DNA from: an uncultured Bacteroidota bacterium
Lineage (GTDB): Bacteria > Bacteroidota > Bacteroidia > Chitinophagales > Chitinophagaceae
Reading direction: 5' to 3'
Assembly (NCBI GenBank): GCA_903831935.1
Contig: CAIKZP010000031.1
Span: forward strand, 74,401-138,400
Length of the DNA stretch: 64,000 nucleotides
The notes beneath the pieces were generated by a model. That model was not told the DNA's origin and made no database searches. It saw nothing but the letters and a program-made list of their open reading frames with translations. Made by a program: the position numbers and the translations under genes. This document shows positions 21,864 to 43,548 of the stretch, in pieces. Within the stretch, counting starts at the first letter, position 1. Each line of letters begins with the position of its first letter.

Positions 21864-23510
21864 ATGCCTAGAGACAACTCCATCAAATCGGTTTTAATCA
21901 TTGGTTCAGGACCTATTATTATAGGCCAAGCCTGTGAATTCGACTATTCAGGCACACAAGCCGCTCGTAGCTTGCGTGAAGAGGGGATCGAAGTGATCCT
22001 TATTAACAGTAACCCTGCCACCATTATGACCGATCCAATGATGGCCGACAAGGTTTACCTACTCCCTTTGACCGTTGAAAGTATAGAAAAAATTTTAGAA
22101 GAGAACGAGATAGATTCCGTTTTGCCTACAATGGGCGGACAAACGGCATTAAATCTATGTAAAGAAGCCGACGAATTAGGGGTTTGGGAAAAATACGGGG
22201 TTAAGTTGATTGGTGTGGATATCGCTGCCATTGACACTGCCGAAGACCGTGAAAAGTTCCGCCAGTTGATGGTTCGTATTGGAATTGCAGTTGCACCTAG
22301 CCGTGTAGCCAATAGTTTTTTAGAAGGAAAAGAATTTGCCCAAGAAATAGGATTTCCTCTAGTAATTCGTCCATCTTTTACCCTTGGTGGTAGCGGAGGC
22401 GGATTTGTACACACCAAAGACGATTTGGATGGCGCACTAGAAAGAGGACTTAAAGCTTCTCCCATTCACGAAGTATTGGTAGAAAAAGCAGTTTTGGGAT
22501 GGAAAGAGTACGAATTAGAATTATTAAGAGATATCAATGATAATGTAGTTATTATCTGTACTGTTGAAAATTTAGACCCAATGGGCGTTCACACAGGCGA
22601 TAGTATTACTGTTGCACCAGCAATGACATTAAGTGACACAGCATACCAAGATATGCGCAACAAAGCCACTTTAATGATGCGTTCACTTGGTAATTTTACT
22701 GGTGGATGTAATGTGCAGTTTGCGCTCAACCCAGCAACCGAAGAATTGATTGCGGTAGAAATTAATCCACGCGTAAGTCGTTCATCGGCCTTGGCTTCAA
22801 AAGCAACAGGTTATCCAATTGCAAAAATTGCTGCGAAACTAGCTATTGGTTATTCGCTCGATGAATTAAAGAATCAAATTACTAAAACAACATCGGCTTA
22901 TTTTGAACCTGCTTTGGATTATGTGATTGTAAAAGTTCCTCGTTGGAATTTCGATAAATTCAAAGGAGCCAATGATACTTTAGGATTACAAATGAAAAGT
23001 GTGGGAGAGGTAATGGCCATTGGAAGAAGTTTTACCGAAGCCATTCAAAAAGCTTGTCAAAGTTTAGAAAATGAAGCGATTGGTTTGGGCTATTATGGAA
23101 AAAGTTTAATGAAGAGTGAAGAGATTGTAGAATACATTAAAACGCCAAAATGGGATCGTATTTTTAGAATCAAAGATGCTTTAATGCAAGGTTCTACTAT
23201 TAAATCTATTGCACAAGCCACTGGTATTGATCGTTGGTTCTTATACCAAATTCAACAAATCTGTGAAATTGAAAAAGAAATTGCAAAATATTCTTTAGAC
23301 ACTATTCCTACTGAGTTACTTAAAGAAGCCAAAAAGAATGGTTTTAGTGATTTGCAGATTGTTAAAATCATGAACAATACTTGCACAGAAGACGAGGTAT
23401 ATGAAAAGAGGAAAGCCTTAGGTATTACACGCGTTTATAAAATGGTGGATACTTGTAGCGCTGAATTTGAAGCGAAAACACCTTATTTCTACAGCACATT
23501 CGAAGGATAA
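21864..23510 (+). CDS. carB: Carbamoyl-phosphate synthase large subunit, N-terminal half only (carboxyphosphate synthetase plus oligomerisation domains)
   Basis: [76 protein letters not shown]; ends at [19 protein letters not shown] then stop. Confidence 0.93.
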
Positions 23511-26062: not shown

Positions 26063-29000
26063 GTGCCAAATAATATGCCAGACCAACCTCAAGTTTTTCA
26101 TTCTGTTTCAAAAGCAAGATGGCAGCGATTTAAAATCGCTTACCGGTTTCTGCTTTTTTTAGGTCTATTGGCTATTGGGGTAATAATGATTGCTATTAGA
26201 AATATGGATAGCAATGAGCCAGAAATTTCATTGGCAAATAAAGCCATTAAAAAAGTATTAACCGATAAAGTTGCGCCATATAGAGAAAGTAAAATGGCAC
26301 AAGATTACCGAGGATTTAGAAATGCCATCAGTGCCAAATGGGCAAAAGGTAAAGTGGGTGGAAAAAATGACGATGTACTCGATCTTTCTACCTCGCCATT
26401 ATTTAGTGACAGCATTGGCATAAGAGCAGCTTTTTATGTAGCATGGGATCCTCAATCTTTTTACTCATTAGAAAAAAATATTTCGAAATTAAACTTAGTT
26501 ATTCCTGAGTGGTTTTTTATAGACCCTAATGCAGATACTTTATTTACCAATATTGACGCACGTGCACTAAAACTAATGAAAGCGTCGGGTGTAAGAATCA
26601 TGCCTATTCTTTCTAATAATTTTAAGCAAGAATTTAGGGGTGCTGCTATTCATAGAATTTTAACAAGCCCTATAAAAAAGCAAAAGCTAATCAATGACCT
26701 TGTTAAGCTATTAAAACAATACGATTTTGCAGGAGTAAATATTGATTTTGAAGAATTAGAGGCTACTAGTTCTGAAGATATTGTTGCATTTCAAAAAGAT
26801 GCATACGCACAATTACACGCCAATAATTTTTTGGTTTCGCAAGATGTGATTCCATTTAATGACGACTACAATTTCAAAGCACTTGCTAAATACAACGACT
26901 ATTTAATTTTAATGGCTTATGATCAATTCCACACAGAAACTAAGCCTGGACCAATTTCTTCGCAACGCTGGATTCAAGCAGCACTAGATGCAATGGATGA
27001 CCATGTTATTGCGTCAAAAATTATTCTGGGCATGGCTGCCTATGGCTATGATTGGAAACTAAAAAGCAAACAAGTAGAAGTGCTATCTTATCAAGAAGCA
27101 CTGGCCAATGCCAAGGAAAGCGATGCTGTAGTTGACTTTGACAATGACACTTATAATTTACACTACCAATATTACGATGGTGCCGACTCTATGCATGAAG
27201 TGCATTTTACAGATGCCGCTACCAATTTTAATATTTTGCGTTTTGCAACAGAATATCGATTAGCGGGAACCGCACTATGGCGTTTAGGAAGCGAAGACAG
27301 TAGGCTTTGGGAATTCTACCATAAGTCAATGACCAAAGAAGCCTTACAAAGTTTTGACTTTAAGGAGTTCAGTAAAGTACCCGCAGGAACTAAACCAGAT
27401 TATATTGGAGAGGGTGAAGTTTTAGATGTGATTGCAACACCAACACCAGGAATGATTACGCCAGAAATTGACAAAGTTGATATGCTAATTAGCGAAGAAG
27501 CATATACCAAACTTCCATCAACTTATGTGATTCGAAAATTTGGCGAAACAAAAAAAAGAAAATTAGTACTCACTTTTGATGATGGACCAGATAGAGTATA
27601 CACCAAACAAATTTTAGACACACTAGCTTTCTACCATGTGCCTGCAAACTTCTTTGTAGTTGGGATTGAAGCAGAAAATAATATCCCTTTAGTTAAAAGA
27701 ATTTTTAGAGAAGGGCACGAGCTAAGTAACCATACTTTTTTTCATCCTAATATGGCCAAGGTTAGTACACAGCGCGCCAATTTAGAAATGGACTTAACAA
27801 GGTTATTGATTGAATGTATCACAGGGCATAGTACCATTATGTTTCGAGCGCCTTTTAATGCTGATAGTGAGCCCGATAAAAGCGAGGAATTAATTCCTGT
27901 AGCATTAAGCAGAAAAAAGAATTACCTAACTGTTGGCGAAAGTATTGATCCCGAAGACTGGCAAAAAGAAGAAGTGCCCAACTTTAATGCAGATACAATT
28001 TTTAATCGGGTGGTGGCTGTTTATAATAAGCGAATTAACAACCCCGATAAAACGGATACTAGTGGTGTAAATGGAAATATTATTTTATTACACGATGCAG
28101 GTGGAGACAGATCTGCAACAGTAGAAGCTACTGGTAAGATCATACGGTTTTTCCAAAGCAGGGGTTACACTTTTACCACAGTAGCAGATTTATTAGGAAA
28201 AAAACCTGAAGACGTAATGCCTGAAGTGCCCAAAGGCAGTGGTTATTATGCACTTCAAGCCAATTATATTTTTGCCGAAATAGGTTATTTGAGTGGTGCA
28301 TTTTTATATGCCCTATTCTTGTTATTTCTTTTATTAAGCGCCATTAGACTTATTGTGATTTTTATACTAGCTGCGCTAGAAAGAAAAACCGAGACGCTTA
28401 AAAATAATACTGCTATTACTATCAATCAATATCCATTAGTTTCCATTATTGTACCTGCATACAACGAAGAAGTAAATGCGGTGAACTCTATTGAAAATTT
28501 ATTAAAATGCAATTACCCTGTTTTTGAAATCATATTTATTGATGACGGTAGTACCGATGCAACTTATAAAAAAGTGACTGATGCCTTTGAATTTAATTCA
28601 TTGGTTAAAATATTAACCAAATCAAATGGCGGTAAAGCCTCAGCATTAAATCATGGAATAGAACATTCGGCAGCACAGTATGTGGTATGTATTGATGCAG
28701 ATACACAATTGGCTACAGATGCAGTGAGTAAGCTCATGCAACATTTTTTAAACCCAATTGGAGGTCAAAAAATTGGCGCAGTAGCAGGCACAGTAAAAGT
28801 GGGGAATGAAATAAATGTTTTAACCAAATGGCAGAGTATTGAATATACAGTAGGCCAAAATTTAGACCGAAAAGCATTTGCACAAGTGAACGCTATTACG
28901 GTGGTTCCTGGAGCAATTGGTGCATTCAACAAAACTGTTTTATTAGATGCCGGTGGATTTACAACAGACACGCTTGCAGAAGACTGCGACCTTACTATTC

Positions 29001-29515
29001 GTATTTTAAAATTAGGCTACCAAATAACCAATGAACAAAATGCCGTTGCATTTACAGAAGCCCCAGAAACTGTTAAGCAGTTTTTGAAGCAACGATTCCG
29101 TTGGAGCTTTGGGGTGATGCAAACTTTTTGGAAACACAAAGAATTATTGTTTAATACCAAGTATAAAGCATTAGGGTTTATTGCTTTTCCAGACATGCTT
29201 TTGTTTAAATACATCATCCCATTATTCAGCCCTATTGCAGATTTTTTAATGGTAATTGGATTATTAACAGACAATGCCGCGAAAATTGGGCGCTATTATT
29301 TGGTATTTATAATAGTGGATGCCATCACTGCAAGTATTGCATTTGCCTTTGCAAAAGAAAAAGTATGGAAGTTAGTTTGGTTAATTCCCCAACGACTAAT
29401 CTATCGATGGTTGATGTTATGGGTATTATTTAAGTCGATGCGTCAGGCAATTAAAGGAGAATTACAACACTGGGGCGTATTAAAAAGAACAGGAAATGTA
29501 AAAGACATTGTATAG
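26063..29515 (+). CDS. Trifunctional GH18-like / CE4 polysaccharide deacetylase / GT2 processive glycosyltransferase fusion; ATG at 26075 may be the real start
   Basis: GH18 FAGVNIDFEE; CE4 LTFDDGPD, NHTFFHPN, RAPFN, ILLHDAGGD; GT2 SIIVPAYNEE, DDGSTD, CIDADTQ, LAEDCDLTIR, KQRFRWSFG. Confidence 0.93.
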   Translation: MPNNMPDQPQVFHSVSKARWQRFKIAYRFLLFLGLLAIGVIMIAIRNMDSNEPEISLANKAIKKVLTDKVAPYRESKMAQDYRGFRNAISAKWAKGKVGGKNDDVLDLSTSPLFSDSIGIRAAFYVAWDPQSFYSLEKNISKLNLVIPEWFFIDPNADTLFTNIDARALKLMKASGVRIMPILSNNFKQEFRGAAIHRILTSPIKKQKLINDLVKLLKQYDFAGVNIDFEELEATSSEDIVAFQKDAYAQLHANNFLVSQDVIPFNDDYNFKALAKYNDYLILMAYDQFHTETKPGPISSQRWIQAALDAMDDHVIASKIILGMAAYGYDWKLKSKQVEVLSYQEALANAKESDAVVDFDNDTYNLHYQYYDGADSMHEVHFTDAATNFNILRFATEYRLAGTALWRLGSEDSRLWEFYHKSMTKEALQSFDFKEFSKVPAGTKPDYIGEGEVLDVIATPTPGMITPEIDKVDMLISEEAYTKLPSTYVIRKFGETKKRKLVLTFDDGPDRVYTKQILDTLAFYHVPANFFVVGIEAENNIPLVKRIFREGHELSNHTFFHPNMAKVSTQRANLEMDLTRLLIECITGHSTIMFRAPFNADSEPDKSEELIPVALSRKKNYLTVGESIDPEDWQKEEVPNFNADTIFNRVVAVYNKRINNPDKTDTSGVNGNIILLHDAGGDRSATVEATGKIIRFFQSRGYTFTTVADLLGKKPEDVMPEVPKGSGYYALQANYIFAEIGYLSGAFLYALFLLFLLLSAIRLIVIFILAALERKTETLKNNTAITINQYPLVSIIVPAYNEEVNAVNSIENLLKCNYPVFEIIFIDDGSTDATYKKVTDAFEFNSLVKILTKSNGGKASALNHGIEHSAAQYVVCIDADTQLATDAVSKLMQHFLNPIGGQKIGAVAGTVKVGNEINVLTKWQSIEYTVGQNLDRKAFAQVNAITVVPGAIGAFNKTVLLDAGGFTTDTLAEDCDLTIRILKLGYQITNEQNAVAFTEAPETVKQFLKQRFRWSFGVMQTFWKHKELLFNTKYKALGFIAFPDMLLFKYIIPLFSPIADFLMVIGLLTDNAAKIGRYYLVFIIVDAITASIAFAFAKEKVWKLVWLIPQRLIYRWLMLWVLFKSMRQAIKGELQHWGVLKRTGNVKDIV

Positions 29516-35515: not shown

Positions 35516-35676
35516 GGCTGAAGTTTTGAGTGATTAAAGATAGAAAAAAAACGATACTAGCCCGTGTTCAATATTTGAATGGTTGAACTAATGAAATATT
35601 TCGACAAATCCGCTAGTTTCCACAATTTGCTACGTAAATTCAGTGCATAGAATTACATCATCCTTTAATTTACAAA

Positions 35677-36513
35677 ATGTACCAATTTTCGCAAAAATTT
35701 CCTGCTAAACGTGCTTTTATAACGGGTGCCGCTTCTGGGCTTGGAAAAGCCTTCTCTATTGAATTGGCCCAAGAAGGCTGGACAATAGGTATGGCCGATA
35801 TTAATGAGGCAGAATTGGCAGTTGCAGCACAAGAAATTAATGCGCTAGGCGGCAAAGCCCTCGTATTTCAATTAAACGTAGCCGATAAGCAAGCCTACAA
35901 AATTGTGGCGGAATCATTTTTACAAGAAGTTGGAGGAATTGATTTGTTGTTTAATAATGCAGGTGTTGGAGATGGAAGTGTTTTTGAGGAATATAGTTTA
36001 GAGAATTATGAGTGGATGATAGGTATAAATTTAATGGGTGTTGTTCATGGCTGTTACTATTTTATTCCCACCATGAAACAACAAAAATCAGGACATATTC
36101 TTAACACGGCTAGTGCTGCAGCTTTTGCTTGTTCACCAACAATGGCTGCTTATAATATGACCAAAGCAGCAGTGGTAGCATTAAGCGAAACATTGTATGG
36201 AGAATTAATGGAACACCATATTCAAGTGTCTTCTATTGAACCAACTTATTTTAAAACAAATGTGGTACAATATGCGCGGGGCGGGGCTTTTGTAAAAAAA
36301 GCAACCCAACATTTTATTGATCGCTCTGGCTTAGAAGCAAAAGAAGTAGCACAAGAAATTTTAACCCGAGCTGGCAACAAAGAACTCTATATTATTTTAC
36401 CAAAATCGGCTAGAAAAATGTGGCAATTAAAAAGACTAGCACCAACTTGGTTTAGAAAAAAAGTAACCGAACAATTTTATACGGCTATGAAAAAAGCCAT
36501 GAAACGATCTTAG
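35677..36513 (+). CDS. SDR family oxidoreductase
   Basis: AFITGAASGLGKAFS, LFNNAGVGD, YNMTKAAVVALSE. Confidence 0.93.
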   Translation: MYQFSQKFPAKRAFITGAASGLGKAFSIELAQEGWTIGMADINEAELAVAAQEINALGGKALVFQLNVADKQAYKIVAESFLQEVGGIDLLFNNAGVGDGSVFEEYSLENYEWMIGINLMGVVHGCYYFIPTMKQQKSGHILNTASAAAFACSPTMAAYNMTKAAVVALSETLYGELMEHHIQVSSIEPTYFKTNVVQYARGGAFVKKATQHFIDRSGLEAKEVAQEILTRAGNKELYIILPKSARKMWQLKRLAPTWFRKKVTEQFYTAMKKAMKRS

Positions 36514-36536
36514 TTTTCATCTCATAAAAAAACACA

Positions 36537-37304
36537 ATGGACGCCAATCAAATATTTAGTTTAAATGGAAAAGTGGCTTTAATAACCGGTGCTAGCAAAG
36601 GTATTGGAGAAGCCATAGCCCGTTATTTTGCTGCCTGTGGGGCACGCGTAATTATCAATTCTAGAAAACAAGATGAGTTAGATAAAGTAGCTGCAGCTAT
36701 TCAAGCAACAGGAGGCGATTGTATAGGAATGGCGGCTAATGCAGGCGATATTGCTGCTTGTAAAATATTAATAGAAAACATCAAAGAACAGTATGGAGGG
36801 ATTGATATATTGGTCAATAATGCCGCAAGCAATCCTGTGTTTGGACCGATGGTAGATTGCGAAGAATGGGCATTTGACAAAATCATGAATGTGAATGTTA
36901 AAGCGCCTTTTGAATTAAGTAGAATGGTGCACCCAATCATGAAAGCTAGGGGTGGCGGTTCTATTATTAATATCAGTTCTATTGCAGGACTCACGCCAGA
37001 TCCAGGACTAGGTATGTATTCTATTTCAAAAGCCGCATTAAATATGCTTACCAAAGTAACCGCAAAAGAATGGGGTGTTGATGGTATTCGTGTAAATGCC
37101 ATTTGTCCGGGTTTAATTAAAACAAAATTTTCTGAAGCACTTTGGCAGAACGAAAAATTTCTAAACTATTTTGTTAAACAGTCTCCCATACAACGCATGG
37201 GAACTGTAGAAGAAATTGCCGGGTTAGCACTTTATTTAGCGGCTGATGCTTCTGGTTATTGCACAGGAACCGTTTTTACTGCAGATGGCGGAAATACTAT
37301 TTAA
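36537..37304 (+). CDS. SDR family oxidoreductase
   Basis: ALITGASKGIGEAIA, LVNNAASNP, YSISKAALNMLTK, YCTGTVFTADGG. Confidence 0.94.
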   Translation: MDANQIFSLNGKVALITGASKGIGEAIARYFAACGARVIINSRKQDELDKVAAAIQATGGDCIGMAANAGDIAACKILIENIKEQYGGIDILVNNAASNPVFGPMVDCEEWAFDKIMNVNVKAPFELSRMVHPIMKARGGGSIINISSIAGLTPDPGLGMYSISKAALNMLTKVTAKEWGVDGIRVNAICPGLIKTKFSEALWQNEKFLNYFVKQSPIQRMGTVEEIAGLALYLAADASGYCTGTVFTADGGNTI

Positions 37305-38548
37305 TTCAGTGTTTTAAATTGTTTACCATGGAACCAATTTTTGTTACCGATCGCATCAAAAACATTATTCCAATTATCAGGGAATTTGTTATTTCAGAAT
37401 TAATCCCATTAGAAAAAGACCATTTAACAAGGCCATTTAAGCAAACTGAAATTATTTTACAAGCAAAAAGAGAAAAAGTAAAAGCCCTTGGTTTATGGGG
37501 ATTACACTTAACAAAAGAAGAAGGTGGCCACGGTCTAACCCTTTGTGAATTTGGGCAGTTAAGTGAAATCATGTCTTTAGCACCTTATTATGGCCAATAC
37601 ACTTTTAATTGCCAAGCACCCGATATTGGTAATGTAGAATTGATAGGAAAATTTGGATCAGCAGCTGTTAAAGAAAAATTTTTACAGCCATTATTGGAAG
37701 GAAAAATCAGGAGTTGTTTTTCAATGACGGAACCAGAATTTGCTGGATCAAATCCTACCAGACTGGGAACAACCGCTGTAAAAGAAGGCGATGAATATGT
37801 AATTAATGGACACAAATGGTTTACCTCTTCGGCCGATGGTGCTGCATTTGCAGTAGTCATGGCCGTTACCAATCCTAGTGCTGCGCCGCACGAAAGAGCC
37901 AGTATGATTATTGTTCCAACCAATACGCCTGGATTTGAGTTGGTGCGAAACATCCCCATTTTTGGAGAGACTGGTGAAGGATGGGCAAGCCATGCAGAAA
38001 TTCGTTACACCAATTGCCGCGTACCTATTTCAAATTTGATAGGACAAGAAGGTGCCGGATTTAAACTTGCGCAAGAACGCCTAGGACCCGGCAGAATTCA
38101 CCATTGCATGCGTTGGATAGGTATTGCAGAAAAAGGACTCGACCTACTTTGTAAATACGCAGTTAGTAGAGAAATTGAAGAAGGCGTTTTATTAGGTGAG
38201 AAACAATTTATACAAGGCTTTATTGCAGAAAGCAGGGTAGAAATTGATGCCGCAAGATTATTGGTTTTGCGTACTGCGCACAATATAGATTTATACGGTG
38301 CAAAAGCTGTTCGCGACCAAATTTCAGGCATCAAGTTTTATGTTGCGAATATGTTTTTAAAAGTGTTAGACCGAGCTATTCAAGTACACGGTGGATTGGG
38401 CCTAACCGATGAAACAATGTTGGCTAATTTATACCAACACGAACGCGGTGCTAGAATTTGGGATGGAGCAGACGAAGTGCACAAACAAGCTATGGCAAGA
38501 AATATTTTAAAAACTTATGGATTGGATATCAAAAAGAAAAATAAGTAA
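37259..38548 (+). CDS. Acyl-CoA dehydrogenase (ACAD10/11-like); probable start ATG 37328
   Basis: CFSMTEPEFAGSNPTRLGTTA, KWFTSSADGAAFAVVM, GPGRIHHCMRWIGIAEKGLDLL, IQVHGGLGLTDETMLANLYQHERGARIWDGADEVHK. Confidence 0.94.
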   Translation: MHRNRFYCRWRKYYLIQCFKLFTMEPIFVTDRIKNIIPIIREFVISELIPLEKDHLTRPFKQTEIILQAKREKVKALGLWGLHLTKEEGGHGLTLCEFGQLSEIMSLAPYYGQYTFNCQAPDIGNVELIGKFGSAAVKEKFLQPLLEGKIRSCFSMTEPEFAGSNPTRLGTTAVKEGDEYVINGHKWFTSSADGAAFAVVMAVTNPSAAPHERASMIIVPTNTPGFELVRNIPIFGETGEGWASHAEIRYTNCRVPISNLIGQEGAGFKLAQERLGPGRIHHCMRWIGIAEKGLDLLCKYAVSREIEEGVLLGEKQFIQGFIAESRVEIDAARLLVLRTAHNIDLYGAKAVRDQISGIKFYVANMFLKVLDRAIQVHGGLGLTDETMLANLYQHERGARIWDGADEVHKQAMARNILKTYGLDIKKKNK

Positions 38549-39603
38549 TGACCATTGACGCTGCTATTCCATTAAAAAACAGTGAATCATTTAATATTGA
38601 TTTGCTCAATGATTATTTAATGGCGCATGCGCCATCCATTGAAAAAATTATTGGTGTAACAAGATTTCCGGGCGGATACTCCAATACCACTTACTGTTTG
38701 CAAACAGCACAAAAAGAACTAGTACTACGCATGCCACCAGCTGGTGCACAAATACAATCTGCACATGATATGGCTAGGGAATTTCGGGTACTCAGTTTAC
38801 TCGAACCGCATTATAAAAAAATTCCGCACCCCATACATTATTGCGCTGCAGATAGCATTCTTGGGGCTCCTTTTTATATCATGGAACGCTTGCAGGGCGT
38901 GGTTTTGCGCGCAGGAAATGCACCTGGTTTGCAATTACCTTTAAACACAATGCACGAAATTTCAGTTGCTTTGGTTGATAATTTAGTAGCCCTACATGCC
39001 ATTGATATTGAATCAACAGATTTAATACAATTGGGTAAGCCAGATGGCTATACTGCCCGCCAAGTTGCTGGTTGGATAAAAAGATATCAAACTGCAGAAA
39101 CCGATACAATTAACAACATGAATCAGTTGGCAGATTGGTTAACAAAAAACCAACCACCAGCACTTGCTCCAACACTATTACACAACGATTATAAATACGA
39201 TAACTTAATTCTTGATAGAAATAATCTTGCAACTATTATAGGTGTATTAGACTGGGAAATGGCCACTGTTGGCAATCCATTAATGGACCTCGGCGCAACA
39301 CTTGCCTATTGGTTTGAAGCCGGAGAAGAACCCGTTTTAAAACACTATAATTTAACTTGGTTAGCAGGTAATTTAACCAGAAAAGAATTGGCCGATAGGT
39401 ATGCCTATAAAACCGGAAGGGACCTGAAAAATATAGTTTTTTATTATGTTTTTGGCTTGTTTAAAAACGCAGTTATTTTACAACAAATTTACCATCGCTG
39501 GAAACAAGGAAAATCGGCTGACCAACGTTTTGGCGCACTCTTACCCATCATTCATATTATTGGAAATATGGCCACTAAAGCGCTAGAAAAAGACAGTATT
39601 TAA
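38548..39603 (+). CDS. Phosphotransferase (APH) family protein, ACAD10/11 kinase-domain-like
   Basis: FPGGYSNTTYCLQT, LLHNDYKYDNLILD, GVLDWEMATVGNPLMDLGATLAYW; TAATG overlap with the ACAD stop. Confidence 0.93.
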   Translation: MTIDAAIPLKNSESFNIDLLNDYLMAHAPSIEKIIGVTRFPGGYSNTTYCLQTAQKELVLRMPPAGAQIQSAHDMAREFRVLSLLEPHYKKIPHPIHYCAADSILGAPFYIMERLQGVVLRAGNAPGLQLPLNTMHEISVALVDNLVALHAIDIESTDLIQLGKPDGYTARQVAGWIKRYQTAETDTINNMNQLADWLTKNQPPALAPTLLHNDYKYDNLILDRNNLATIIGVLDWEMATVGNPLMDLGATLAYWFEAGEEPVLKHYNLTWLAGNLTRKELADRYAYKTGRDLKNIVFYYVFGLFKNAVILQQIYHRWKQGKSADQRFGALLPIIHIIGNMATKALEKDSI

Positions 39604-39612
39604 ATGTGCTAT

Positions 39613-40392
39613 TTACTCTTCTCTTTTTCTTAAACTTCCTTTGGAATTATTTTTTGTAGCCTTATAATGCTCGAAACTTTTTTCAATAAAATACCCCAGC
39701 TCTAATTCGTTTAATTGCTGCACAATATCGTAGTCTGGTCTATACCGATGCATGAAACTGTCTAATTCAGCGCCAGTTAATTTAGTCACCTTTCTTACAA
39801 ATGATTTACTAAAGCGGTTGTCTACGTATTTTTCTTGTTCTTGTTCAAGTAAGCGTTTCTGCAAACTCAAGATGCTTTTATTGCGTTTGAAACGAAACAT
39901 ATTAATGATTTCGTCTAAGTCAAAACCAACAGTCATGCTCCCAGGATTGTAATTTGGATTCGAACTCAAACGAAGCGCTGGCTTTTTAAAGTCAAAGATT
40001 TTTGCGTAGTCTTTTCTGTTTTGTACAGAATCAAATTTGTAATAATTGTTACGCACTTTTACATCTGGAAGATCAAATGAGCGTACATGGATCATTACAT
40101 CAAAATTATCGGTGTTTGAAATGGTGTCCACTGCAAATTTCATGGTTGATTTTCCTATCATTGAAAACCAAATAGAATCATTTACCGAAACCCTAATTTG
40201 GTATTTACCCAATGAGTCGGTAATAGTGCCTCGTCCAGAATTGCTCAATACAGCAACTGCTTCTAATGGCCTTCTTGCAGATATATCAAATACCCTACCG
40301 CTAATTAAAACAGATTGGGCTTGGGTTATTTGTGCAAACAAACCAAACAGTACAATTAAACTAAAATAAAGAAAGTGTAGCCTTTTTCTCAA
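39613..40392 (-). CDS. Carboxypeptidase-like regulatory domain-containing secreted protein
   Basis: Signal peptide then ISGRVFDISARRPLEAVAVLSNSGRGTITDSLGKYQIRV. Confidence 0.75.
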   Translation of the reverse strand: MRKRLHFLYFSLIVLFGLFAQITQAQSVLISGRVFDISARRPLEAVAVLSNSGRGTITDSLGKYQIRVSVNDSIWFSMIGKSTMKFAVDTISNTDNFDVMIHVRSFDLPDVKVRNNYYKFDSVQNRKDYAKIFDFKKPALRLSSNPNYNPGSMTVGFDLDEIINMFRFKRNKSILSLQKRLLEQEQEKYVDNRFSKSFVRKVTKLTGAELDSFMHRYRPDYDIVQQLNELELGYFIEKSFEHYKATKNNSKGSLRKREE

Positions 40393-42552: not shown

Positions 42553-43548
42553 CTATTTTTTTAATCCAATTTCTCTTAAACGCTCGTCTAAATAATCACC
42601 CGCAGTAATATCTTCATAAGCCTTAGGATGTGCTGCATCAATGCAACTATCTAAACATGCCAAACTCATTTCGCTTCGAGGATGTAAAAAAAATGGCATT
42701 GAAAACCTACTGGTATGCCATAAGTCACGAGATGGATTTACTACACGATGAGTGGTGCTACAAAGTTTGTTATTGGTTAATCGCTGAAGCATATCTCCTA
42801 CATTCACCACAATTTGGTCTGGTAAAGAAGTTACATTCAACCACTCGCCTTGCTTGGTAAGTATTTGTAAACCATCTGCCGATGCGCCAACTAATAAAGT
42901 AATTAAGTTGATGTCTTCGTGTTGTTCTGCACGAATAGCCGATTTTGGCTCGCTAGTAATGGGTGGATAATGGATACAACGTAAAATGGAATTTCCATTA
43001 TGTATATGTGGGGTAAAATAATTTTCATTCAAGCCCAAATAACTAGCAATGGCTGCTAATAAAGCGGAGCCTGCTGTTTCAAAATGTTTGTAGGCATTAA
43101 ATATGGTTTCATTAAAAATAGGAATCTCAGCAATTTTTACATTTTCTGGATAACTCTCTTTAATTAGATCGGCATCTTCAACCGTTTGTCCATATTGAAA
43201 AAACTCTTTTAAATCTGGGGCTTCACTGCCTTTTGCATGTTCACGTCCAAAACTAGTATAACCACGTTGTCCGGCTAATCCAGCAATTTCGTAGTGTAGC
43301 TTTTTTTCTAAGGGCAACGAAAAAAATTGTTGCACATATTCGTATTGTGCTGCAATTAATGCATCGGGAATTCCATGGTTTTTTACTGCAACAAAGCCAA
43401 CTGTTTCATAGGCATTCCCTAAAGACTGAATAAAATCGGCTTTCTGTTCTGGACTGCCACTTACAAAAGCGGCTAAATCAACTACTGGTATTGCCATAGC
43501 AAGAATATTAAAATAATACAGACCATTTTTAATCACACTAAAATACAA
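42553..43548 (-). CDS. Isopenicillin N synthase family 2OG-Fe(II) dioxygenase
   Basis: [49 protein letters not shown]. Confidence 0.92.

Follow-up and report, generated by a model that had tools for sequence, protein, structure and literature searches.

Only in 2024-2025 were mammalian ACAD10 and ACAD11 recognised as the enzymes of a kinase plus acyl-CoA dehydrogenase route that handles 4-hydroxy fatty acids. Structure and mutants of mouse ACAD11 identified R626, H634 and R637 as the residues holding the 4-phosphate and D753 as the base (PMC12440821). The kinase of ACAD10 favours the R configuration about fourfold, and bacterial proteins can replace either ACAD10 domain in vitro (PMC11342911). 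A kinase, an acyl-CoA dehydrogenase (ACAD) and a short-chain dehydrogenase (SDR) are also encoded together in the lva operon of Pseudomonas putida and its counterpart in P. citronellolis. Here, we describe a four-gene operon, ordered SDR1, SDR2, ACAD and APH (a kinase of APH fold), in a stretch of 64,000 nucleotides ("the window") on contig C31 of the 3.5-Mb draft genome of an uncultured Bacteroidota bacterium. We consider it likely that this operon brings 4-hydroxy- and 4-ketoacyl-CoAs into beta-oxidation via phosphorylation and phosphate elimination. The chemistry and the kind of enzyme are already known; the clade, the pairing of the SDRs and the link to DHRS4 appear to be new.

In the proposed pathway, CoA esters would be supplied by a ligase whose gene lies elsewhere, or would arise as longer mid-chain hydroxy fatty acids are shortened. 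SDR2, of NADP type, and SDR1, of NAD type, would interconvert the 4-keto and 4-hydroxy forms, and through this interconversion either starting compound, or the wrong enantiomer, could become the form used by the kinase. The APH kinase would phosphorylate the 4-hydroxyl with ATP, and the FAD-holding ACAD would eliminate the phosphate to yield a 2-enoyl-CoA without net oxidation, a step predicted because the residues proven to have that role in mouse ACAD11 are strictly conserved. FadB- and thiolase-type enzymes, for which genes are present elsewhere in the genome together with two fatty-acyl-CoA ligase-type genes, could complete beta-oxidation. Substrates, direction of the SDR reactions, stereochemistry and the source of the CoA esters are what we infer here; action on 4-keto and 4-hydroxy fatty acids had been proposed in a preliminary description of the locus made from the sequence alone, and we presume the same.

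Catalytic residues speak for this prediction. H222, R251, R256, H259, C260, M261, R262 and D379 of the window ACAD correspond to H597, R626, R631, H634, C635, M636, R637 and D753 of mouse ACAD11; we accept this mapping because the printed mouse chain, offset by one, yields all eight published residue names (PMC12440821). The HCMR motif (H259, C260, M261, R262) is intact. Equivalents of R626, H634, R637 and D753 are kept in 114 of 114 relatives. By contrast, four ordinary ACADs, three from the same genome plus the butyryl-CoA dehydrogenase of a Clostridioides, lack all of the Arg/His/Arg residues and carry Glu instead of Asp. In the kinase, R171, D214, N219 and D235 match mouse ACAD11 R176, D220, N225 and D240, whose equivalents are retained in all 82 kinases compared. 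The motifs named in the preliminary description, HNDYKYDNLILD and DWE in the kinase and GPGRIHHCMRWIG in the ACAD, are all present. The operon thus shares with mammalian ACAD11 and ACAD10 the pairing of kinase and ACAD, all residues for phosphate elimination and kinase catalysis, and an Asp rather than a Glu base (PMC12440821, PMC11342911), but encodes two separate proteins where mammalian ACAD11 is one fused chain.

Sequence searches, fold comparison and phylogeny place the ACAD consistently. By sequence, the solved structures nearest to it are those of ACAD11 from mouse and human (E 6e-83 to 5e-82) and Mycobacterium abscessus 4hr3, while the best ordinary ACAD among solved structures reaches only E 5e-44. 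With an AlphaFold model of mean pLDDT 90, fold matches 1-4 are 4hr3 and ACAD11; the top match, 4hr3, has ACAD10/11-type residues except that Ala replaces the Cys of HCMR. The ACAD10/11-type proteins, including the window ACAD, separate from ordinary ACADs with support of 100/100 in the careful tree and 100 in a tree of 118 rows, and the grouping with ordinary short- or medium-chain dehydrogenases that had been named in advance as contrary evidence was not seen. Within the type, two clades are resolved (100/100 each in the group test). One holds ACAD11, 4hr3 and many plasmid-borne bacterial genes; the window ACAD falls outside it, in the sister clade, with relatives from Bacteroidota, Chloroflexota, Planctomycetota, Thermodesulfobacteriota, Gemmatimonadota and other groups. 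A Thermus ACAD with a long branch belongs to neither clade. The window ACAD is therefore of the ACAD10/11 kind, though of another clade than ACAD11, and its phosphate elimination is predicted from sequence. The likeness to ACAD10/11 first proposed for the operon holds for the kind of ACAD and kinase, as borne out by residues, trees, folds and gene pairing; it does not extend to the exact clade, the ACAD lying in the sister clade and the kinase in another subfamily.

Generic Pfam names would also suit a purely accidental neighbourhood of an ordinary acyl-CoA dehydrogenase with an aminoglycoside-resistance-like kinase. We give this explanation almost no credence, as residues, trees and a pairing conserved over many phyla speak against it and antibiotic-kinase models score 33 bits against a cut-off of 205. 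Both an ordinary beta-oxidation ACAD and a resistance-type APH are ruled out by residues and trees. Many genes labelled "phosphotransferase family protein" beside an "acyl-CoA dehydrogenase family protein" are likely to encode fatty-acid enzymes, not resistance determinants.

The kinase is closest by sequence to 9o56 (E 5e-83), followed by the kinase of ACAD11 (1e-47), and belongs with 9o56 to a separate subfamily (support 96/98) rather than to that of the ACAD11 kinases. Fold matching of its AlphaFold model (pLDDT 93) ranks 3dxp first and a 25-hydroxysteroid kinase (9ft5, 9fsg) second; 3dxp, 9o56 and 4hr3 have no assigned function in the records consulted. The 25-hydroxysteroid kinase, from Sterolibacterium, likewise has the APH fold and phosphorylates an alcohol for elimination (PMC8449060), but it differs in its steroid substrate, its lack of an ACAD partner gene and its weak sequence match to the window kinase (E 1.3e-6; no close relation). 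Since this enzyme acts on a tertiary alcohol (PMC8449060), its rank among the fold matches lends some weight to the view that the operon applies the same phosphorylate-and-eliminate chemistry to a substrate other than a straight-chain 4-hydroxyacyl-CoA, for example a 5-hydroxyacyl-CoA or a hydroxy acid that is branched, tertiary or cyclic. The separation of the window ACAD clade from ACAD11 points the same way, as does the fact that some relatives belong to catabolic clusters that also contain genes for cytochrome P450, carboxylase or IclR. We nevertheless regard another substrate as unlikely: the steroid kinase matches at E 1e-6, far behind 9o56 and the ACAD11 kinase, its gene has no adjoining lyase candidate, unlike the window operon, and the phosphate-binding residues, which in ACAD11 are tuned to a 4-phosphate, are all kept. 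A 4-hydroxyacyl-CoA thus remains the substrate that we favour for the putative kinase.

At 4-5 points, the kinase tree disagrees with that of the ACADs. Members of the window's kinase subfamily adjoin ACADs that belong to the ACAD11 clade, both in two further Bacteroidota families and on Deinococcus and Pseudoalteromonas plasmids. The conflicts therefore indicate that partners were exchanged between clades while the pairing was kept, in accord with the replaceability of ACAD10 domains in vitro (PMC11342911). The bacterial side of this chemistry thus appears wider than the Lva operon, with a second ACAD clade of many phyla that has the same catalytic residues and with kinases swapped several times.

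Gene neighbourhoods extend this picture. An APH gene on the same strand and at most 3.5 kb away accompanies the ACAD at 82 of 114 loci from many phyla. Other neighbours among the 114 loci are DHRS4-like SDRs (44), D-type SDRs (21) and 3-hydroxyacyl-CoA dehydrogenases (18), and histidine phosphatase, enoyl-CoA hydratase/MaoC, ETF, TetR regulator and acyl-CoA ligase genes also recur. The recurrence of genes of beta-oxidation among them (3-hydroxyacyl-CoA dehydrogenase, enoyl-CoA hydratase, ETF and acyl-CoA ligase) favours the proposed pathway. Gene order varies: ACAD-APH-SDR-SDR-3-hydroxyacyl-CoA dehydrogenase-ligase on a Novosphingobium plasmid, ACAD-SDR-APH-SDR on a Bosea plasmid, and ligase-SDR-ACAD-APH-DUF6285-histidine phosphatase on a Thermus thermophilus plasmid (locus L193); on a haloarchaeal plasmid, a related kinase lies between SDR genes. 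Given these other orders, the window operon is one arrangement of a common bacterial module. Its earlier portrayal as a "minimal Bacteroidota version" was too narrow: the module is neither minimal nor confined to Bacteroidota, and combinations of ACAD, APH and SDR are widespread in bacteria. Three loci (L035, L037, L038) have ACADs of the window clade and no APH gene nearby; their genomes encode a DHRS4-like SDR elsewhere. A histidine phosphatase gene adjoins the ACAD-APH pair at 18 loci (e.g., L132, 5172-5882), and its product might rescue CoA or phosphate from dead-end phospho-intermediates.

In classical SDRs, the motif after beta-2 predicts the cofactor. SDR1 has Asp41 at this place, in "MADIN", which indicates the NAD type, and SDR2 has "NSRKQ" with Arg43, which indicates the NADP type; the active-site motifs of both are intact. 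The two SDRs, listed together in the preliminary description, are hence not interchangeable. The nearest NCBIfam model of SDR1 is PRK05650, with a score below its cut-off. SDR2 resembles DHRS4, a peroxisomal NADP(H)-dependent carbonyl reductase, with which it shares 42% identity and the SRKQ motif; its best solved relatives are the pig (2zat, E 7e-57) and human (3o4r, 2e-56) enzymes, followed by the best non-DHRS4 chain at 7e-46, and among the 17 matches to DHRS4 that the genome encodes it scores highest (192 bits; the runner-up has 128). Every same-strand two-SDR module that we read, from about eleven lineages, combines one Arg-type SDR (NADP-like, "SSRKQ" or "CARR") with one Asp-type SDR (NAD-like). 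The pairing of motifs is less clear in a three-SDR module of Sphingomonas, and Sphingopyxis has two SDRs on the opposite strand, both Asp-type. A pair with opposite cofactor preference would suit the oxidation of one enantiomer to the ketone and its reduction to the other.

The DHRS4-like SDR also follows the ACAD across genomes. Among 54 Bacteroidota genomes, 27 with and 27 without the ACAD, a DHRS4-like SDR (at least 180 bits to pig DHRS4) is present in 23 of the 27 ACAD-bearing genomes, adjacent to the ACAD in 15 and elsewhere in 8, versus none of the 27 ACAD-free genomes, where the best scores reach about 141 bits. Two of the four exceptions (L039, L040) have a relative of SDR1 beside ACAD-APH, a third (L052, genome G184) combines an SDR1 relative with a different Arg-type SDR, and the fourth (G402) belongs to the same genus as G184. 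SDR1 relatives adjoin ACAD-APH at L120 as well.

A different division of labour is a real possibility, although we lean towards SDR1 acting at the 4-position: SDR1 could be the NAD-dependent 3-hydroxyacyl-CoA dehydrogenase of the next step, leaving SDR2 as the sole 4-ketoacyl-CoA reductase and no inversion of the 4-hydroxyl. Loci of the Algoriphagus type, which combine a DHRS4-like SDR with a 3-hydroxyacyl-CoA dehydrogenase and have no second SDR, fit this division, as do the NAD-type motif, which suits oxidation, and the finding that LvaC and ACAD10 also yield some 3-hydroxyacyl-CoA (PMC11342911). Two modules, on the other hand, contain all three genes, and only 2 of the 44 loci that have a DHRS4-like SDR contain both a D-type SDR and a 3-hydroxyacyl-CoA dehydrogenase, where chance would give about four, a weak sign of substitution. 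SDR1 relatives at L039 and L040, which have no DHRS4-like SDR, fit an enzyme of the 4-position better. The neighbourhood data thus separate the two roles of SDR1 weakly.

Human and zebrafish ACAD11 have a peroxisomal signal, and DHRS4 is treated as peroxisomal in the same inventory (PMC8919083). Our literature searches found no paper tying DHRS4 to 4-keto acids or to ACAD11 function. The co-occurrence in bacteria therefore suggests, by analogy, that DHRS4 may supply or remove the 4-hydroxyl in the ACAD11 pathway, which offers a directly testable hypothesis on the natural role of human DHRS4 and on the way in which 4-keto acids enter the pathway. It is tempting, if rather doubtful, to go further and regard the DHRS4 family as 4-ketoacyl-CoA reductases that formed an ancient three-part module with an APH kinase and an ACAD10/11-type enzyme. 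Animals would have kept peroxisomal DHRS4 and ACAD11, and bacteria would have added an NAD-type SDR that inverts the 4-hydroxyl to the configuration preferred by the kinase.

Several points weigh against the assignment of the operon to 4-hydroxy- and 4-ketoacyl-CoAs. With identities to mouse ACAD11 of about 42% for the ACAD and about 33% for the kinase, and with positions outside the mouse clades, the two proteins could differ from it in chain length or hydroxyl position. We found no biochemistry for any member of the window ACAD clade. Four of the 27 ACAD genomes have no DHRS4-like SDR, and a further 8 encode it at a distance from the ACAD; the Fisher value for the co-occurrence (3e-11) comes from genomes related by descent and is not a corrected probability. 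Finally, the putative functions of both SDRs are those that we infer from motif, similarity and context.

LvaB, which we take to be the DUF6285 family, has a candidate on the Thermus plasmid, where a gene for a DUF6285 protein of 116 amino acids (L193, 5923-6273) directly follows the kinase and fits the described 12-kDa LvaB; this placement supports DUF6285 as the LvaB family. Neither the window genome nor any of the 27 ACAD-bearing Bacteroidota genomes encodes DUF6285. The levulinate cluster of P. citronellolis is also without LvaB (PMC6692424), and for this reason the missing gene does not count against the function of the operon. The same fact, together with the shared logic of kinase, ACAD and SDR, could be taken to favour a strict Lva-type pathway for levulinate (C5). 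We judge such a pathway quite improbable. In gene content, the window operon differs from lva in that it has two SDRs and no adjoining CoA ligase (LvaE), LvaB, transporter or sigma-54 regulator gene; its sequence holds nothing that points to C5, and the ACAD11 pocket is reported to be open enough for longer chains (PMC12440821). Nothing that we found supports levulinate specifically, and a strict levulinate operon, lacking ligase, LvaB and regulator, is unsupported. If its input were hydroxy fatty acids already shortened, the pathway could do without a dedicated ligase.

The layout of the operon is given in Table 1; across the four genes, Pfam assigns adh_short, adh_short_C2, three acyl-CoA dehydrogenase domains and APH. 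Open reading frame coordinates bear out the earlier account of four co-directional genes with 23-nt gaps and a TAATG overlap: both gaps are exactly 23 nt (36514-36536 and 37305-37327), and the TAA stop of the ACAD (38546-38548) overlaps the ATG of the APH gene (38548-38550) by one base. The ACAD begins at ATG 37328; the mechanical list of reading frames has TTG 37259, and relatives begin at the ATG. The flanks agree with the earlier observation that no LvaB-like or ligase gene is adjacent, with divergent genes for an RND pump and adaptor upstream and a convergent gene (39613-40392) without a Pfam match at E <= 1e-8 downstream.

Table 1. Features of the operon and its 5' region in the window.
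Feature	Position	Strand	Interpretation	Basis
SDR1	35677..36513	+	short-chain dehydrogenase, NAD-type	adh_short E 1.7e-48
SDR2	36537..37304	+	DHRS4-like short-chain dehydrogenase, NADP-type	DHRS4 structures 2zat and 3o4r as best solved relatives
ACAD	37328..38548	+	ACAD10/11-type acyl-CoA dehydrogenase-fold enzyme, putative 4-phosphoacyl-CoA phosphate-eliminating	three acyl-CoA dehydrogenase Pfam domains
APH	38548..39603	+	APH-fold kinase, putative 4-hydroxyacyl-CoA kinase	Pfam APH
TAATG stop/start overlap ACAD/APH	38546..38550	+	likely translational coupling	
161-bp divergent intergenic region 5' of SDR1	35516..35676	+	presumed operon promoter	position only

The host is a member of Sediminibacterium or of a genus near it, and named relatives of the locus are found in Chitinophagaceae bacterium BSSC1 and Sediminibacterium spp. 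Five other contigs of the Sediminibacterium type carry these four genes in unchanged order and with the same flanks (57-88% identity), and this recurrence makes the operon more than a chance arrangement. All four genes have dN/dS below 0.2, indicative of purifying selection; many synonymous distances are saturated, and several of the comparisons yield only upper bounds. A congener (G473) has all flanking genes in order with only about 240 bp in place of the operon, and its genome contains neither the ACAD nor a DHRS4-like SDR. The intact flanks imply that the four genes were gained or lost as one block. Among 100 genomes from 99 genera of the family Chitinophagaceae, the ACAD is confined to the genus of the window (2 genomes), and its distribution in the phylum is patchy, with 27 of 396 Bacteroidota genomes positive at the chosen cut-off. 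The nearest relatives outside the genus are from Spirosoma-type bacteria, which is compatible with horizontal transfer but no proof of it.

Three other loci in the window deserve mention. A half-length gene for the large chain of carbamoyl-phosphate synthase (21864-23510; 548 amino acids) encodes domains D1-D3 only, and no second half lies beside it. A gene at 26063-29515 encodes a fusion of 1150 amino acids that joins glycosyl hydrolase 18, polysaccharide deacetylase and family 2 glycosyltransferase domains. A 2-oxoglutarate Fe(II) oxygenase gene (42553-43548) adjoins chromate-transporter-like and ParA-like genes, and this group is syntenic in Sediminibacterium-type contigs, including the operon-free one.

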